A stretch of 23,378 bases of DNA. Origin: a virus. Below are positions 4,937 through 23,181 of this stretch, in pieces. Every line of letters starts with the position of its first letter. The stretch's first letter is position 1. The translations under genes and the position numbers were made by a program. The notes beneath the pieces were generated by a model. The model was not told where the DNA came from. It saw only the letters and a list, made by a program, of their open reading frames with translations, and made no database searches. Where the stretch lies: positions 1 through 23,378 of IMG/VR virus record IMGVR_UViG_3300049825_000171. The stretch is one strand, 5' to 3'.

Positions 4937-6366
4937 TCGACACCCTGCTTGGTCAGGTCCGGCTTGAAGCCTGTGATCTCGCACTCTCCGTAGGTTGCGA
5001 TCTTGATCCTGTGCCACCGTGCCGCGCTGAGAAAGTCAAAACGCTTGCGAGAGTCGATGCCCACCGTGCCGTCTTCGACAATAGCGTCCTGCAAGTGATT
5101 GCGCCCGTAATAGCCCAGCAGTGCGTCAACCGGCGCCGTCAAGAATCCTGGCGTCACCCGGCGCAGCAAGCTGAATCGGTCGACGTCGCCGATGTCGCCG
5201 GTTGTGATGCTGCAAAAGCCGGGCGTGCCGTCCATCGTCGCCACGACGTGGTTGTCGTTGGCAATGGTGATAAACGGGTTCTTGGTCGACGACCACAACG
5301 CCGAGCCGTAAGTCTCATTCGGCGCGTCGGCGTAGAACGTCAGCAGCTTGGCCATGTCGTTGTAGGTCAACTCGGCCTCGTAGCGGAGCGCATCTTCCGC
5401 GATCTTCGACCCCGCGCCCCAGAGGTTGCTGCGGTAGTTGTAGCAAAGGTACTTGTCGGGCTTGCCGGACAGCGTGTTGTCGAGCGTCACGTACCAGAAG
5501 AAAACGCGAAAATTCTCGGGGTCGTGCCGCACGATCATGCGATTCAGGTACACCGGGAAACTCTCGGCGCGCCAGGTTTCGCGCACCCCGTCACCGATGG
5601 ACTGCGGTAGCGACGAACCGTCGTATCGCCAAAAATCATTACCCGATGACCACACCAGCGCGCCGCCGATGTTGCACACGCCGTCGGGCGAGGCGCAGCC
5701 TATCGTCGGAGAAATGAGGCGGATATCCCAGATGACGGGAGGACCTACAAAACGCGCGTGGTAGCACGATTCCTTTTTGAAAAACACCAGATCATCACCG
5801 AGTCGGTGGATAGCGGTGATTTCGCCTGGGGTGTCGAACAGACGGCCGTTCGCGCACTGGGTCGCCACCGACGGTGCCCACTGCGTGTGATCGTAGATCC
5901 CCGAGCAGTACCAGCCATCCGGCACGGCGCTGCCGTTGTTGTAATTGCCCAGCATCACGAAGCCCATGCACACCGCCATCACTTTGGCCTTGGGTGCGCC
6001 GGAAATCGTGGAAAACGTGGTGCTGGTCGATACCTGCAAGTTGATGTCAGGCCGCACGGCCAGCGAGGCGTCACCAAACTGGGCAAACTGCCACTTGTCG
6101 TTGACGTTGCTGGCGTAGGTGCCGCGACTGGTCCAGGCACCTGAAACCAACTCCTGAATGCTGGTGTCCTGGCCGGCAAACAGTCGGGTCGTGCCGTCCA
6201 GCTTCATGCCCATGTAAAGGCCTCGGCACTGACCTGGCAGGGCCGATGTTCTCGGGGTGTCCTCGTTCATCGCCTCGTAGCCACGCACGGTGGGCACGTA
6301 GTCATCGCACTGGGTCAGCACGTCGGGCGTGGTCGGATCGAGATCAGGCGCAAAGCGGAGCATCAA
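4933..6366 (-). CDS. P22 gp10-like tail hub / packaged-DNA stabilisation protein
   Basis: A 477-residue protein, close to P22 gp10 (about 472). It begins MMLRFAPDLDPTTPDVLTQC. The body is beta-rich with repeated aromatic-Gly/Asp motifs (GLYMGMKLDGTTRLFAG, DDLVFFKKESCYHARF, ALVWSSGNDFWRYDG, KYLCYNYRSNLWG), as expected for a beta-propeller-like hub. In P22, gp10 binds the gp4 ring under the portal and closes the tail channel so packaged DNA stays in. Its place supports this: it follows the gp4-like adaptor with an ATGA overlap and precedes the fiber-like gene with another. Two adjacent ATG codons are present; the first (6366) is in the overlap. The sequence is diverged, so the assignment rests on size, fold pattern and order. 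Confidence 0.75.
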   Translation of the reverse strand: MMLRFAPDLDPTTPDVLTQCDDYVPTVRGYEAMNEDTPRTSALPGQCRGLYMGMKLDGTTRLFAGQDTSIQELVSGAWTSRGTYASNVNDKWQFAQFGDASLAVRPDINLQVSTSTTFSTISGAPKAKVMAVCMGFVMLGNYNNGSAVPDGWYCSGIYDHTQWAPSVATQCANGRLFDTPGEITAIHRLGDDLVFFKKESCYHARFVGPPVIWDIRLISPTIGCASPDGVCNIGGALVWSSGNDFWRYDGSSLPQSIGDGVRETWRAESFPVYLNRMIVRHDPENFRVFFWYVTLDNTLSGKPDKYLCYNYRSNLWGAGSKIAEDALRYEAELTYNDMAKLLTFYADAPNETYGSALWSSTKNPFITIANDNHVVATMDGTPGFCSITTGDIGDVDRFSLLRRVTPGFLTAPVDALLGYYGRNHLQDAIVEDGTVGIDSRKRFDFLSAARWHRIKIATYGECEITGFKPDLTKQGVE

Positions 6367-15162: not shown

Positions 15163-16098
15163 CTACTTCATGCGCTTTGCAGCAGCTTCAATAATTTCTG
15201 CCAAATGCTGCCGCTTAACAGCACCCCCCATGCTATCGCCTACTATCCGTGCAAGGGTTTCACTCGTAGCCGTAAACTCATCTTGGGCAATCGGCTTAAT
15301 CGTGAGCCTGTCCCCTGCGTGCCATAACACCCAACGACCACCTAGTAAAGGGTTACTGTTAAAGGAAAGCGTCATTTGCTTTAGGCCTTCAGGTAGGTCA
15401 AGATCGATAGTCAGCGTGTTTGGAGAGTTCGACTTGCTCAGCAAATCACCCTCTAACGCTTTAACCTTTTCTTCGATCCTGGCTTCAAGCTCTTTATCGC
15501 TGATGTACAGCATCGTGGCGCCATCACGGTATTCGATACGCTTTTGCTCCAAGTATTCAACCGCATCATCAAATTTATCGGCTGGCAGTAGTTTGTAACT
15601 GCTTACGCCAAAATGCAGTTGAAAGCGTTTCCAGATGGCCGCACGGATTTTATTGTCTGCACCGGCAATGCTATCGACAGTACCAAAGAGCTGGCCAGCT
15701 TGGGCATTGGTGATGGTGGGTGGTTCTGGGAGTTCGAGTAGGCCGTAACGTGTTTTTGGAAACAGCTTGTCAGCCATGTAGTTGAAGGCGTTGATGTAGG
15801 CCACTTTGACAGCCATGGCTTTTACACCTGTATAGCTCATGACAACCAACATAAAGCCATCCTTGCCCATTTCAAAATATGGCTCTGGCTTACCGTTGGC
15901 TAACTCGTTGATTCTTGTACACTCCCCAAATATGGGGGCTGCAGGAATGTCTTTTAATGACTCAATGATTTGTCTTATGCCGCGAATAACATGATCGTGA
16001 CGTTTGCCAAAAGCTTCGGCAATTTTGAGTGAAGTGGTTTTAAGCTCAGAGTCTTGAGCGAAAATGAATTGTTCTGGGGTTAAAGCAATAGCATTCAT
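15163..16098 (-). CDS. Rha-family phage regulator / antirepressor
   Basis: A 311-residue regulator. Residues about 8-112 form a Rha domain (SLKIAEAFGKRHDHVIRGIR, then FEMGKDGFMLVVMSYTG and AYINAFNYM). Residues about 130-200 (AGADNKIRAAIWKRFQLHFG, YKLLPADKFDDAVEYL) resemble the C-terminal domain of P22-type antirepressors or ORF6C. Proteins of this layout interfere with phage repressors or host regulation. Its leader carries a c4-like RNA and a short Ash/Icd-like frame, the order found in the P1 immunity-I operon (c4, icd, ant), which supports the antirepressor role. The ATG follows GAGATGC, a segment that can pair with upstream RNA, so translation is probably controlled by structure. The target repressor is unknown; the CI in this window is a candidate. 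Confidence 0.83.
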   Translation of the reverse strand: MNAIALTPEQFIFAQDSELKTTSLKIAEAFGKRHDHVIRGIRQIIESLKDIPAAPIFGECTRINELANGKPEPYFEMGKDGFMLVVMSYTGVKAMAVKVAYINAFNYMADKLFPKTRYGLLELPEPPTITNAQAGQLFGTVDSIAGADNKIRAAIWKRFQLHFGVSSYKLLPADKFDDAVEYLEQKRIEYRDGATMLYISDKELEARIEEKVKALEGDLLSKSNSPNTLTIDLDLPEGLKQMTLSFNSNPLLGGRWVLWHAGDRLTIKPIAQDEFTATSETLARIVGDSMGGAVKRQHLAEIIEAAAKRMK

Positions 16099-16102
16099 GG
16101 TT

Positions 16103-16186
16103 GCATCTCGAATAAGGTAGTAAACCTGTCACGAGTGACGCCAATCACTGGTGACAGACTGAACGGAGTTGGCGTACCTGAGATGC
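16103..16186 (-). promoter_or_regulatory. Self-pairing leader of the antirepressor, target of the c4-like RNA
   Basis: On the minus strand GCATCTC (16186-16180) can pair with GAGATGC (16109-16103), which is just before the antirepressor ATG. ACGCCAA (16175-16169) can pair with TTGGCGT (16144-16138). The upstream short RNA carries TTGGCGT, CCTG and AGATGC in the matching order, so it can pair with the same 5' half. The leader therefore has two mutually exclusive partners. Confidence 0.6.
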
Positions 16187-16224
16187 ACAGGCCAGCCTCG
16201 CGGCTGCTCCGCCCAGTCCGCCAT
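16129..16224 (-). CDS. Ash/Icd-like short leader frame (31 aa)
   Basis: ATG 16224 to TGA 16129: MADWAEQPRGWPVHLRYANS and 11 further residues. The sequence resembles short proteins annotated Ash or Icd-like before phage antirepressors, with an M-x-x-W/Q-A...GWP...YAN...VTS pattern. In P1, icd lies between c4 and ant, and its translation is coupled to ant. Here the stop is 30 bases before the antirepressor start. CTTCCTTT precedes the ATG with no good ribosome site. The codons for YAN and DWR lie in the RNA-pairing segments, so the apparent protein conservation may really reflect RNA structure. Real translation is uncertain. A longer TTG-started frame from 16311 begins inside the short RNA and is less credible. 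Confidence 0.4.
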   Translation of the reverse strand: MADWAEQPRGWPVHLRYANSVQSVTSDWRHS

Positions 16225-16248
16225 AAAGGAAGTCTGGACAATAGGCAC

Positions 16249-16270
16249 AAAAAAACCGCAAGGGTTGCGG
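16249..16270 (-). terminator. Intrinsic terminator of the c4-like RNA
   Basis: On the minus strand CCGCAA, loop CCC, TTGCGG is followed by seven T (16255-16249). It would end most transcripts from the adjacent promoter before the antirepressor. Read-through is needed to express the antirepressor from this promoter. Confidence 0.8.
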
Positions 16271-16322
16271 CTATGCCGCATCTGACAGGACGCCAATCCC
16301 GTACTGTCCAATGAGGGACAGC
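16249..16322 (-). ncRNA. c4-like antisense RNA of an immunity-I-type locus
   Basis: A predicted RNA of about 74 nt bounded by a promoter (16329-16357) and an intrinsic terminator. Its 5' hairpin is CTGTCC/GGACAG with loop CTCATT (16321-16304). A mostly unpaired segment (16300-16281) holds TTGGCGT, CCTG and the start of AGATGC. Hairpin TGCGGC-ATA-GCCGCA (16280-16266) overlaps the terminator stem, so the two cannot form together. The middle segment is complementary to the downstream leader at 16186-16169 in three blocks of 7, 4 and 6 pairs separated by 1-2 base bulges. Length, position before a short frame and an antirepressor, and complementarity match what is known of P1/P7 c4 RNA, about 77 nt, which blocks antirepressor synthesis. 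Identification is by architecture, not by database search. Confidence 0.7.
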
Positions 16323-16328
16323 ATGGTT

Positions 16329-16357
16329 AGGATAGCCGTGAGTCACAGCGCTGTCAA
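16329..16357 (-). promoter_or_regulatory. Strong sigma70 promoter for the c4-like RNA
   Basis: Minus strand -35 TTGACA (16357-16352, perfect), 17-base spacer, -10 TATCCT (16334-16329, 4 of 6). The -35 begins directly after the stop codon of the 64-residue gene. The predicted start is near 16322, at the base of the first hairpin of the RNA. No repressor site is obvious, so constitutive expression is likely. Confidence 0.75.
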
Positions 16358-22252: not shown

Positions 22253-22441
22253 CTATTTCAAAAACTCGGTAGGTATCTGTATGCCCTTACGAACAGCAGC
22301 ACCAATAACGATGTTTTTTTTGGTTTCATTAAGCTCATCTGGCCATTGGCTGATAGCTGATTTGCCAACACCAACAGCATTCGCTAGGTCTTGGAAGCGA
22401 TTTCCGAATAGTTTTTTGGCGTCGTTTTTTGTCATGTGCAT
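22253..22441 (-). CDS. cro: Cro-like repressor
   Basis: A 62-residue HTH protein (MHMTKNDAKKLFGNRFQDLA, then NAVGVGKSAISQW). The HTH spans about residues 14-36. The recognition-helix segment VGVGKSAISQW is nearly the same as VGVGKSSVSQW in the divergent CI, which suggests both read the same operators. Small size, K-x-LFG start and divergent position identify a Cro/DicC-type switch protein that would shut off CI and commit to lysis. The second in-frame ATG (22435) is an alternative start; the ribosome site is weak for both. Confidence 0.85.
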   Translation of the reverse strand: MHMTKNDAKKLFGNRFQDLANAVGVGKSAISQWPDELNETKKNIVIGAAVRKGIQIPTEFLK

Positions 22442-22503
22442 AGTTTAGCCCATTGAACGCATAAATCAAGCCCTTTGAACTCAAAGTTTAGTAACCTGAA
22501 TTC
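22442..22503. promoter_or_regulatory. CI/Cro operator and divergent promoter region
   Basis: A 62-bp gap between divergent repressor genes. A perfect-arm palindrome, CTTTGA-AC-TCAAAG, is at 22473-22486. A looser TTGA-N9-TCAA is at 22453-22469. AGTTTAG occurs twice (22442-22448, 22485-22491), each followed 5 bases later by TGAA. For cro, -10 TAAACT (22490-22485, minus) with TTGTAT 17 bases upstream is a candidate, and the second TAAACT copy has TTGATT at 16 bases. A clear promoter for CI was not found, so it may need activation. Confidence 0.6.
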
Positions 22504-23181
22504 ATGAATACAATCGGCGATAGAATTAAGACAGAACGTAAAGCCAAGCAACTCACTCAAGAGGAGCTTGGCAAACTTGTTGGCGTTGGTAAGTCATCCG
22601 TAAGCCAGTGGGAAAGCGGTTTAACTAAAAACCTTATTGGCCATAACTTAACTCGTGTAGCTTCAGCCTTATCCGTTACTGAAAATTGGCTAGTCACTGG
22701 ATCAGGGGCCAAATACCCACCAGGCATACATGCAACTCTTTCAGTTTACCCATCAGAAATAGCTATAGAATCAAATGTAAGCCACGGGCCGACAATACAC
22801 GGCAAAGTGCCGCTCATTAGCTGGGTGCAAGCTGGACATGCGCTAGAAGTGGTTGATTTGTTACATCCTGGGGATGGATTCGAGTGGATTGATACCACTT
22901 GCCAAATAAAAGCCCACACCTACGCTTTAAGAGTGCAAGGCGACAGCATGACCCCCGATTTTCCAGACGGCTGCATTATCGTTGTGGAGCCAGAACTTGA
23001 TCCGTTGCCTGGGGATTATGTGATTGCCAAGAATGGCGATGACGAGGCTACTTTTAAACAGCTCATCAAAGATGGTGCAGACTATTACCTCAAACCCCTT
23101 AACGAGCGTTACCCCATCAAACCGCTTGGCTCCTACCGTGTGATTGGTGTGGTGCGTGAGTTAGTCAGAAGGTTTAGGTAA
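22504..23181 (+). CDS. cI: CI-type repressor with S24 (LexA-like) autocleavage domain
   Basis: A 225-residue lysogeny repressor and the only complete plus-strand gene. The HTH_3 domain occupies residues 4-65 (RIKTERKAKQLTQEELGKLV, GVGKSSVSQWESG). The C-terminal S24 peptidase half contains the cleavage pair Ala110-Gly111 (SWVQAGHALE), catalytic Ser148 (GDSMTPDFPDG) and Lys185 (EATFKQL), so RecA-stimulated self-cleavage during DNA damage, and hence SOS induction, is expected. It should dimerise through this domain and bind the adjacent operators to block the cro-side early operon. It faces away from Cro across a 62-bp operator gap. Confidence 0.95.
   Translation: MNTIGDRIKTERKAKQLTQEELGKLVGVGKSSVSQWESGLTKNLIGHNLTRVASALSVTENWLVTGSGAKYPPGIHATLSVYPSEIAIESNVSHGPTIHGKVPLISWVQAGHALEVVDLLHPGDGFEWIDTTCQIKAHTYALRVQGDSMTPDFPDGCIIVVEPELDPLPGDYVIAKNGDDEATFKQLIKDGADYYLKPLNERYPIKPLGSYRVIGVVRELVRRFR

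Follow-up and report, generated by a model that had tools for sequence, protein, structure and literature searches.

The 23,378-nucleotide (nt) stretch of viral DNA analysed here (IMG/VR record IMGVR_UViG_3300049825_000171, positions 1 to 23,378; hereafter the window) very probably contains an immunity operon of the phage P1 type, in which a small antisense RNA, C4, keeps the gene of a Rha-type antirepressor silent. The kind of module, a P1-type RNA switch, is already known, and this phage adds one more example of it. Computed support covers the identity and fold of C4, both copies of its target, the coevolution of its b' element with the target elements b1 and b2, and the gene order. An initial annotation, made from the letters alone, had placed a P1-like C4 module 5' of a Rha-type regulator, and this much was borne out by the Rfam C4 match, the gene order and the Rha domain match.

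Identification of C4 and its two targets

When the Rfam c4 covariance model was run, as the initial annotation had suggested, a positive result was obtained at positions 16147-16228 on the minus strand (RF01695; 62.4 bits against a cut-off of 45, E = 4e-10); all features of the module lie on this strand. In the same kind of search the C4 RNAs of P1 and P4 scored 68.8 and 74.9 bits. Going by the ends of P1's c4, the mature RNA is predicted to extend from ~16222, where there is a GGC resembling an RNase P-type site, to 16150. Processed C4 RNAs start with GGW or GGC, to which the GGC at 16222 is similar (PMC5320573); RNase P processing to ~77 nt is typical of C4 RNAs, and here it would probably yield ~73 nt. 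The three-helix C4 fold of the window has a z-score of -4.33, with none of 200 shuffled sequences folding as well. It includes the conserved C4 element a' (ACGCCAA, 16169-16175) and the variable specificity element b' (TGCATCTC, 16180-16187), which occupies the helix-3 loop together with its closing base.

Two copies of a complementary target were found, in which the variable element is named b1 or b2 following the P1 nomenclature. The first copy lies in a 74-nt leader (16249-16322) and consists of a1 (TTGGCGT, 16290-16296), which complements a', and b1 (AGATGC, 16278-16283), which complements b'; their order is as annotated in P1. In the second copy, a2 (TTGGCGT, 16138-16144) is found 3' of C4, directly after which it is also kept in related loci, and b2 (GAGATGCA, 16102-16109) covers the Shine-Dalgarno sequence of the Rha-type gene, rha (GAG, 16109-16107, 8 nt before the ATG). 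b2 is a perfect 8-nt complement of b', for which the window's own C4 is the best among the 26 C4s compared below, and a'/b' complement a2/b2 at the downstream ribosome-binding site. This second pair, which is the one relevant to rha, had been overlooked in the initial annotation.

The promoter, terminator, 74-nt stretch, open frame, rha gene and three complementary words that had been described earlier are all present, and the pairing of TTGGCGT, CCTG and AGATGC of the leader, in this order, with 16186-16169 was confirmed as being beyond chance (0 of 20000 shuffles contained the three words in order). What did not hold is the assignment of roles, in which 16322-16249 was taken for the antisense RNA and 16186-16169 for the control site of the antirepressor. 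The Rfam C4 match and the order annotated in P1 indicate that the antisense RNA had been exchanged with its upstream target: C4 is at 16228-16147, 16322-16249 is the a1/b1 target leader (IsrK/seqA-like) and 16186-16169 belongs to the recognition region of C4 itself, the control site more probably being a2/b2. Because the leader (isrK/a1b1) and C4 are each complementary to the other, they are easily confused and prone to mutual misidentification.

It is accordingly hard to credit that the 74-nt RNA is itself an antisense repressor acting on 16186-16169. Its complementarity to that site is real, and it has its own promoter and terminator; however, the site is inside the 62.4-bit C4, ~70 nt 5' of the rha start, and the RNA is of the same strand as the rha Shine-Dalgarno sequence and shows no complementarity to it, whereas b2 complements b' and resembles b1. 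Moreover, the same positions in P1 are annotated as a1/b1 targets, c4 RNA and a2/b2 targets.

Comparison with other C4 loci

Viral contigs were collected with a pattern that consisted of the C4 3' half and the a2 element, and included neither the b elements nor the leader. Together with BLAST matches, and counting the window itself, these amounted to 26 distinct C4 loci; P1 was added as the 27th row of the alignment. Among these 27 sequences, 22 of the 27 pairs of the C4 fold were changed on both sides, amounting to 97 such cells against 20.8 in shuffled alignments; since the loci come from related phages, these substitution counts do not represent independent events. In the C4 fold 96.4% of cells were paired, as opposed to 32-48% for slid structures.

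The helix-3 loop (b') is variable, yet at most loci it matches the leader and the Shine-Dalgarno element beside it, and does so far better than it matches those of other loci. The mean perfect match was 7.44 nt between b1 and its own b' (shuffled, 4.42; 25 loci) and 8.0 nt between b2 and its own b' (shuffled, 4.73; 26 loci), and neither value was attained in 2000 permutations. For the window, the b1-b' match is 6 nt and its C4 ranks second among the 26 C4s. This provides a rule for reading immunity specificity from sequence, namely that b' of a C4 must match both b1 and b2. When cross-recognition of the window's targets was analysed, the leader paired best with its own C4; on the downstream target the C4 of locus L127 tied by energy, hence energy alone fails to separate specificities there.

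In the relatives, isrK is located 20-30 nt 5' of C4, and C4 is followed by genes coding for a Rha domain (L094, L127, L157, L175 and L181), AntA (L003 and L177), BRO-N with or without a P22AR C-terminal domain (L004, L006, L136, L167 and L184) or ORF6N (L155). The initial annotation had singled out a Rha-type protein in place of P1 Ant; the Rha and ORF6C domains were confirmed, but with five more viral contigs in which C4 precedes a Rha gene, the combination is ordinary rather than new. The direct b2-antirepressor arrangement, without icd, is likewise common to many other loci.

Searches for closer relatives of the phage returned little. Starting from Rha, one viral contig was found (38% identity; no C4 on the DNA examined) and none among genome contigs; the portal protein had no relatives in viral contigs, the closest terminase relatives examined (L008-L011) had no C4 on the DNA examined, and exact patterns derived from the window's own C4 matched no viral contig.

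One relative, L157, carries two complete isrK and C4 cassettes in tandem (5304-5492 and 6170-6355, minus strand), ~860 nt apart and with different b' loops. They possibly represent two immunity specificities in one prophage.

Promoter, leader RNA and terminator

A sigma-70-type operon promoter was recognized at 16329-16357 (TTGACA at 16357-16352, a 17-nt spacer and TATCCT at 16334-16329), with a predicted start at ~16322. By itself it does not exceed chance, with 2 promoter-like sites in the stretch and 1.8 expected. Its -10 element is positioned where the c4-a1b1 model begins, and as is the annotated P1c4 promoter relative to a1/b1 in P1; the start of the leader matches that in P1 and the other loci. 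The promoter contains a perfect palindrome, ACAGCGCTGT (16345-16354), that reaches into the end of the -35 element and is a possible operator.

A full-length alignment with the isrK model (RF01394; 32 bits, cut-off 50) spans exactly the 74 nt of the leader (16322-16249), and the c4-a1b1 model (RF03163; 22.6 bits, cut-off 46.7) matches 16335-16282. As a yardstick, P1's own leader scored 35.1 bits with isrK, also under the cut-off, and 51 bits with c4-a1b1. The duplex between the leader and the C4 guide was predicted at -34.8 kcal/mol (shuffled mean, -22.4), a value that 6 of 5000 dinucleotide-shuffled leaders equalled. The complementarity of a1/b1 to the adjacent C4 that characterizes c4-a1b1 RNAs was thus found, both in these shuffles and across the loci (0/2000 permutations).

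The leader ends in an intrinsic terminator (16249-16272) that comprises an 8-pair stem (16272-16254) and a run of seven U (16255-16249). Terminator-like sites are about as frequent in the stretch as expected by chance (2 found, 1.4 expected); a U-run after the leader recurs in 25 of the 26 loci. The terminator brings in a further reading, in which C4 would act mainly on a1/b1, as in P4, strengthening termination in the leader and halting readthrough into rha. We judge this unlikely to be the principal mode of action, although it is compatible with a block of translation by C4. The order is the same in P4 (an isrK-like leader, then the C4-family CI RNA), where, according to work cited in PMC4825925, CI RNA makes transcription terminate early by way of seqA and seqC; and when a1/b1 of the window were blocked, predicted pairing of the terminator rose from 0.52 to 0.89 (1 of 60 shuffles as high). 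However, the terminator is already predicted without C4 in most of the 26 leaders, P1 included, with a clear rise in ~6, and no general antiterminator was found among them. A related candidate, an attenuator with an antiterminator hairpin after b1 that would be freed by C4, was rejected, as the effect was clear in ~6 of the 26 leaders and not general.

Proposed mechanism and its alternatives

Transcription of the operon would depend on a single promoter (16357-16329) and begin at ~16322. Part of it would end near 16249, giving the 74-nt leader RNA with a1/b1, and the remainder would read through C4 into rha. C4 (~73 nt, probably released by RNase P) would form its three helices and expose a' (ACGCCAA) and b' (TGCATCTC), which would bind a2/b2 either in the same mRNA molecule or in a different one. 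Since b2 is the Shine-Dalgarno element of rha, this pairing would block Rha translation; P1 C4 is reported to block translation at icd by pairing over the Shine-Dalgarno sequence (as summarized in PMC5320573). The a1/b1 elements of the leader could also bind this a'/b', either in cis, before the transcript is processed, or in trans from the short RNA, and in this way compete for C4. A lysogen would have its Rha kept off by C4 and would be immune to phages sharing its b specificity; were C4 to become scarce, Rha would be made and may antagonize the CI-type repressor encoded at 22504-23181. In this scheme C4 processing, the translational block, the competition and the antirepressor activity and target of Rha are all presumed to be as in P1, P4 and Gifsy-1.

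Several points weigh against it. The leader is below the cut-offs of both Rfam families (isrK and c4-a1b1). The Shine-Dalgarno sequence of rha (GAG) is weak, and pairing at the downstream target is modestly better than in shuffles (118 of 5000 as good). In simple co-folding, the self-fold of C4 outweighs pairing with either target, the gain being ~1-2 kcal/mol, so that pairing must be loop-initiated or helped. Finally, Rha is presumed to be an antirepressor from its PHROGs family annotation and its place after C4.

The role of the leader may be a more active one. In the minimum-energy fold of the window's readthrough transcript, 22 pairs join leader and C4 guide; this predicted pairing, together with the silent form described for Gifsy-1, suggests that the leader probably competes for C4. 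One tentative proposal is that the terminated leader has a genuine regulatory function, titrating C4 as a decoy or an activator; we hold it to be somewhat less probable than its opposite. If true, two RNAs would make up the switch: production of Rha would hinge on how much short leader there is relative to C4, a ratio fixed by a single terminator. The IsrK mechanism of Gifsy-1 could then be general to C4 systems, since almost every C4 locus examined, including that of P1, retains the leader, the terminator and a b1 that matches b'.

A stronger version makes activation of the IsrK type dominant: the short leader RNA, an activator and more than just a target, would bind in trans to the C4 part of the long transcript, opening it and switching on translation into rha. 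It is compatible, and partly overlaps, with the C4-block reading, and as the dominant mechanism it is possible but doubtful. In Gifsy-1, short IsrK supplied in trans raised anrP translation >100-fold, and the long RNA is silent (inactive structure A) when leader and orf45 are paired (PMC4825925). The readthrough transcript of the window is predicted in the leader-paired form, as it is in 12 of the 24 other loci with a leader, and the apparent start of orf45 in Gifsy-1 corresponds in position to a 31-amino-acid frame (16224-16129) whose ATG is at the 5' end of C4. On the other hand, cis pairing was not predicted in the other 12 loci and the leader falls short of the isrK cut-off. The 31-amino-acid frame ends 30 nt before rha, which would make coupling weaker than in Gifsy-1, and the corresponding frame continues into the next gene in ~10 relatives and stops early in others; as a protein in its own right it is therefore not conserved.

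The rha gene and the overlapping open frame

The gene held off by C4 in the preferred interpretation, rha (15163-16098, ATG at 16098), codes for a Rha-type regulator with an ORF6C domain, presumed to be the antirepressor. Pfam matches were obtained with Rha (PF09669; E = 1.4e-24, 86.9 bits against a cut-off of 29.9) and ORF6C (PF10552; E = 7.6e-05), and PHROGs matches with phrog_518 (Rha-like regulator, E = 4e-39) and phrog_373 (anti-repressor, E = 8e-26).

The initial annotation had also included an Ash/Icd-like frame. An open frame of 88 amino acids does exist (16361-16095), but it had no PHROGs match and no Pfam match up to E = 1, the Ash family (PF10554) included, and is unsupported as a gene. 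The P1 c4-icd-ant layout that had been proposed stands as regards the order promoter, a1/b1, C4, a2/b2 and antirepressor; icd itself is missing between b2 and rha, where there is no room for a gene since the rha Shine-Dalgarno sequence is itself covered by b2 (16109-16102).

A reading in which the stretch mainly codes for an Ash/Icd-like protein translationally coupled to rha, the RNA features being by-products, is highly improbable. The stop of the 88-amino-acid frame overlaps the rha start (ATGA), and similar DNA in Escherichia coli and Hafnia records is annotated as Icd-like or Ash. However, besides lacking database matches, the frame begins 5' of the promoter and of the predicted transcription start and runs through both terminator and C4, whose base pairs covary. 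In addition, in Hafnia phage yong2 (L005, 1635-2318) an annotated Ash protein has a Pfam Phage_ASH match (residues 68-161, ~1836-2117 of L005) which coincides with the isrK (1848-1922) and C4 (1946-2032) stretches; the protein likeness of such frames can therefore derive from the RNA. To some extent, the Ash family of Pfam may represent translated RNA leader and not a real protein family.

Relation to known systems

The operon is most like c4-icd-ant of P1, whose record is annotated in the order promoter P1c4, a1, b1, c4 RNA, a2, b2, icd and ant1. A promoter, a leader with a1/b1, C4, a2/b2 at a ribosome-binding site and an antirepressor follow each other in the same order and with similar spacing, and the C4 fold and a'/b' logic are shared. 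The differences are that in the window b2 is on the antirepressor's own Shine-Dalgarno sequence, with no intervening icd, and that its protein has Rha and ORF6C domains whereas P1 Ant has a KilAC domain.

With isrK-orf45-anrP of Gifsy-1 (RF01394, STnc1160) the window shares a terminated leader of ~77 nt followed by a complementary stretch and an antirepressor, as well as a readthrough transcript predicted to pair the two; it differs in its leader score (32 bits, cut-off 50) and in the orf45-like frame, whose stop 30 nt before rha makes coupling doubtful. The two-hairpin c4-a1b1 leaders of Rfam (RF03163) have the same C4-complementary a1 and the same position relative to promoter and C4, but their members differ from the window's leader, which at 22.6 bits is under the cut-off of 46.7.

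In seqA-cI-seqC of satellite phage P4 a C4-family antisense (CI) RNA also stands between two target copies (PMC4825925); unlike that of the window, the P4 system involves no antirepressor. P4 scored 74.9 bits with C4, 60.8 with isrK and 44.1 with c4-a1b1. The CI RNA of P4 (L329, 1921-2008, minus strand) lies inside an annotated 137-amino-acid coding sequence, 'cI gene product', which is apparently an old misannotation of the RNA gene.

The closest DNA found (87% over ~60 nt) is on plasmid pRS11DPr3 of Methylomagnum ishizawai (L003, 1986-2200), where a C4-like RNA before AntA has the same b' core (GCATCT) and b2 core (GAGATG) as the window. Unlike the window, it has no visible a1/b1 leader or terminator upstream, its gene is AntA and its C4 scores 36.3 bits, below the cut-off. 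The likeness hints at a methanotroph host for the phage or at a shared immunity group.

Phage context

With this locus the C4 class gains an environmental phage that has a P22-like portal, lies outside the well-studied enterobacterial phages and keeps both target copies. Elsewhere in the window, at 22253-23181, there is a lambda-like switch in addition to the C4 module: a CI-type repressor with an S24 peptidase domain (22504-23181, plus strand) and, divergent from it, a small Cro-like protein (22441-22253) that is below the Pfam cut-off. An RNA-based second switch beside CI/Cro, as proposed in the initial annotation, is plausible. No CI operator shared between the C4 promoter and the CI/Cro gap was found, and the palindrome ACAGCGCTGT is not repeated at that gap.

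Two further observations concern DNA next to rha genes. Immediately 3' of rha in the window, on the same strand, there is a dCTP deaminase-like gene (PF22769, 14546-15094). In a related viral contig, L001, an Rfam CRISPR-DR4 match (1213-1240; 42.9 bits, cut-off 35) is found just past the Rha gene.
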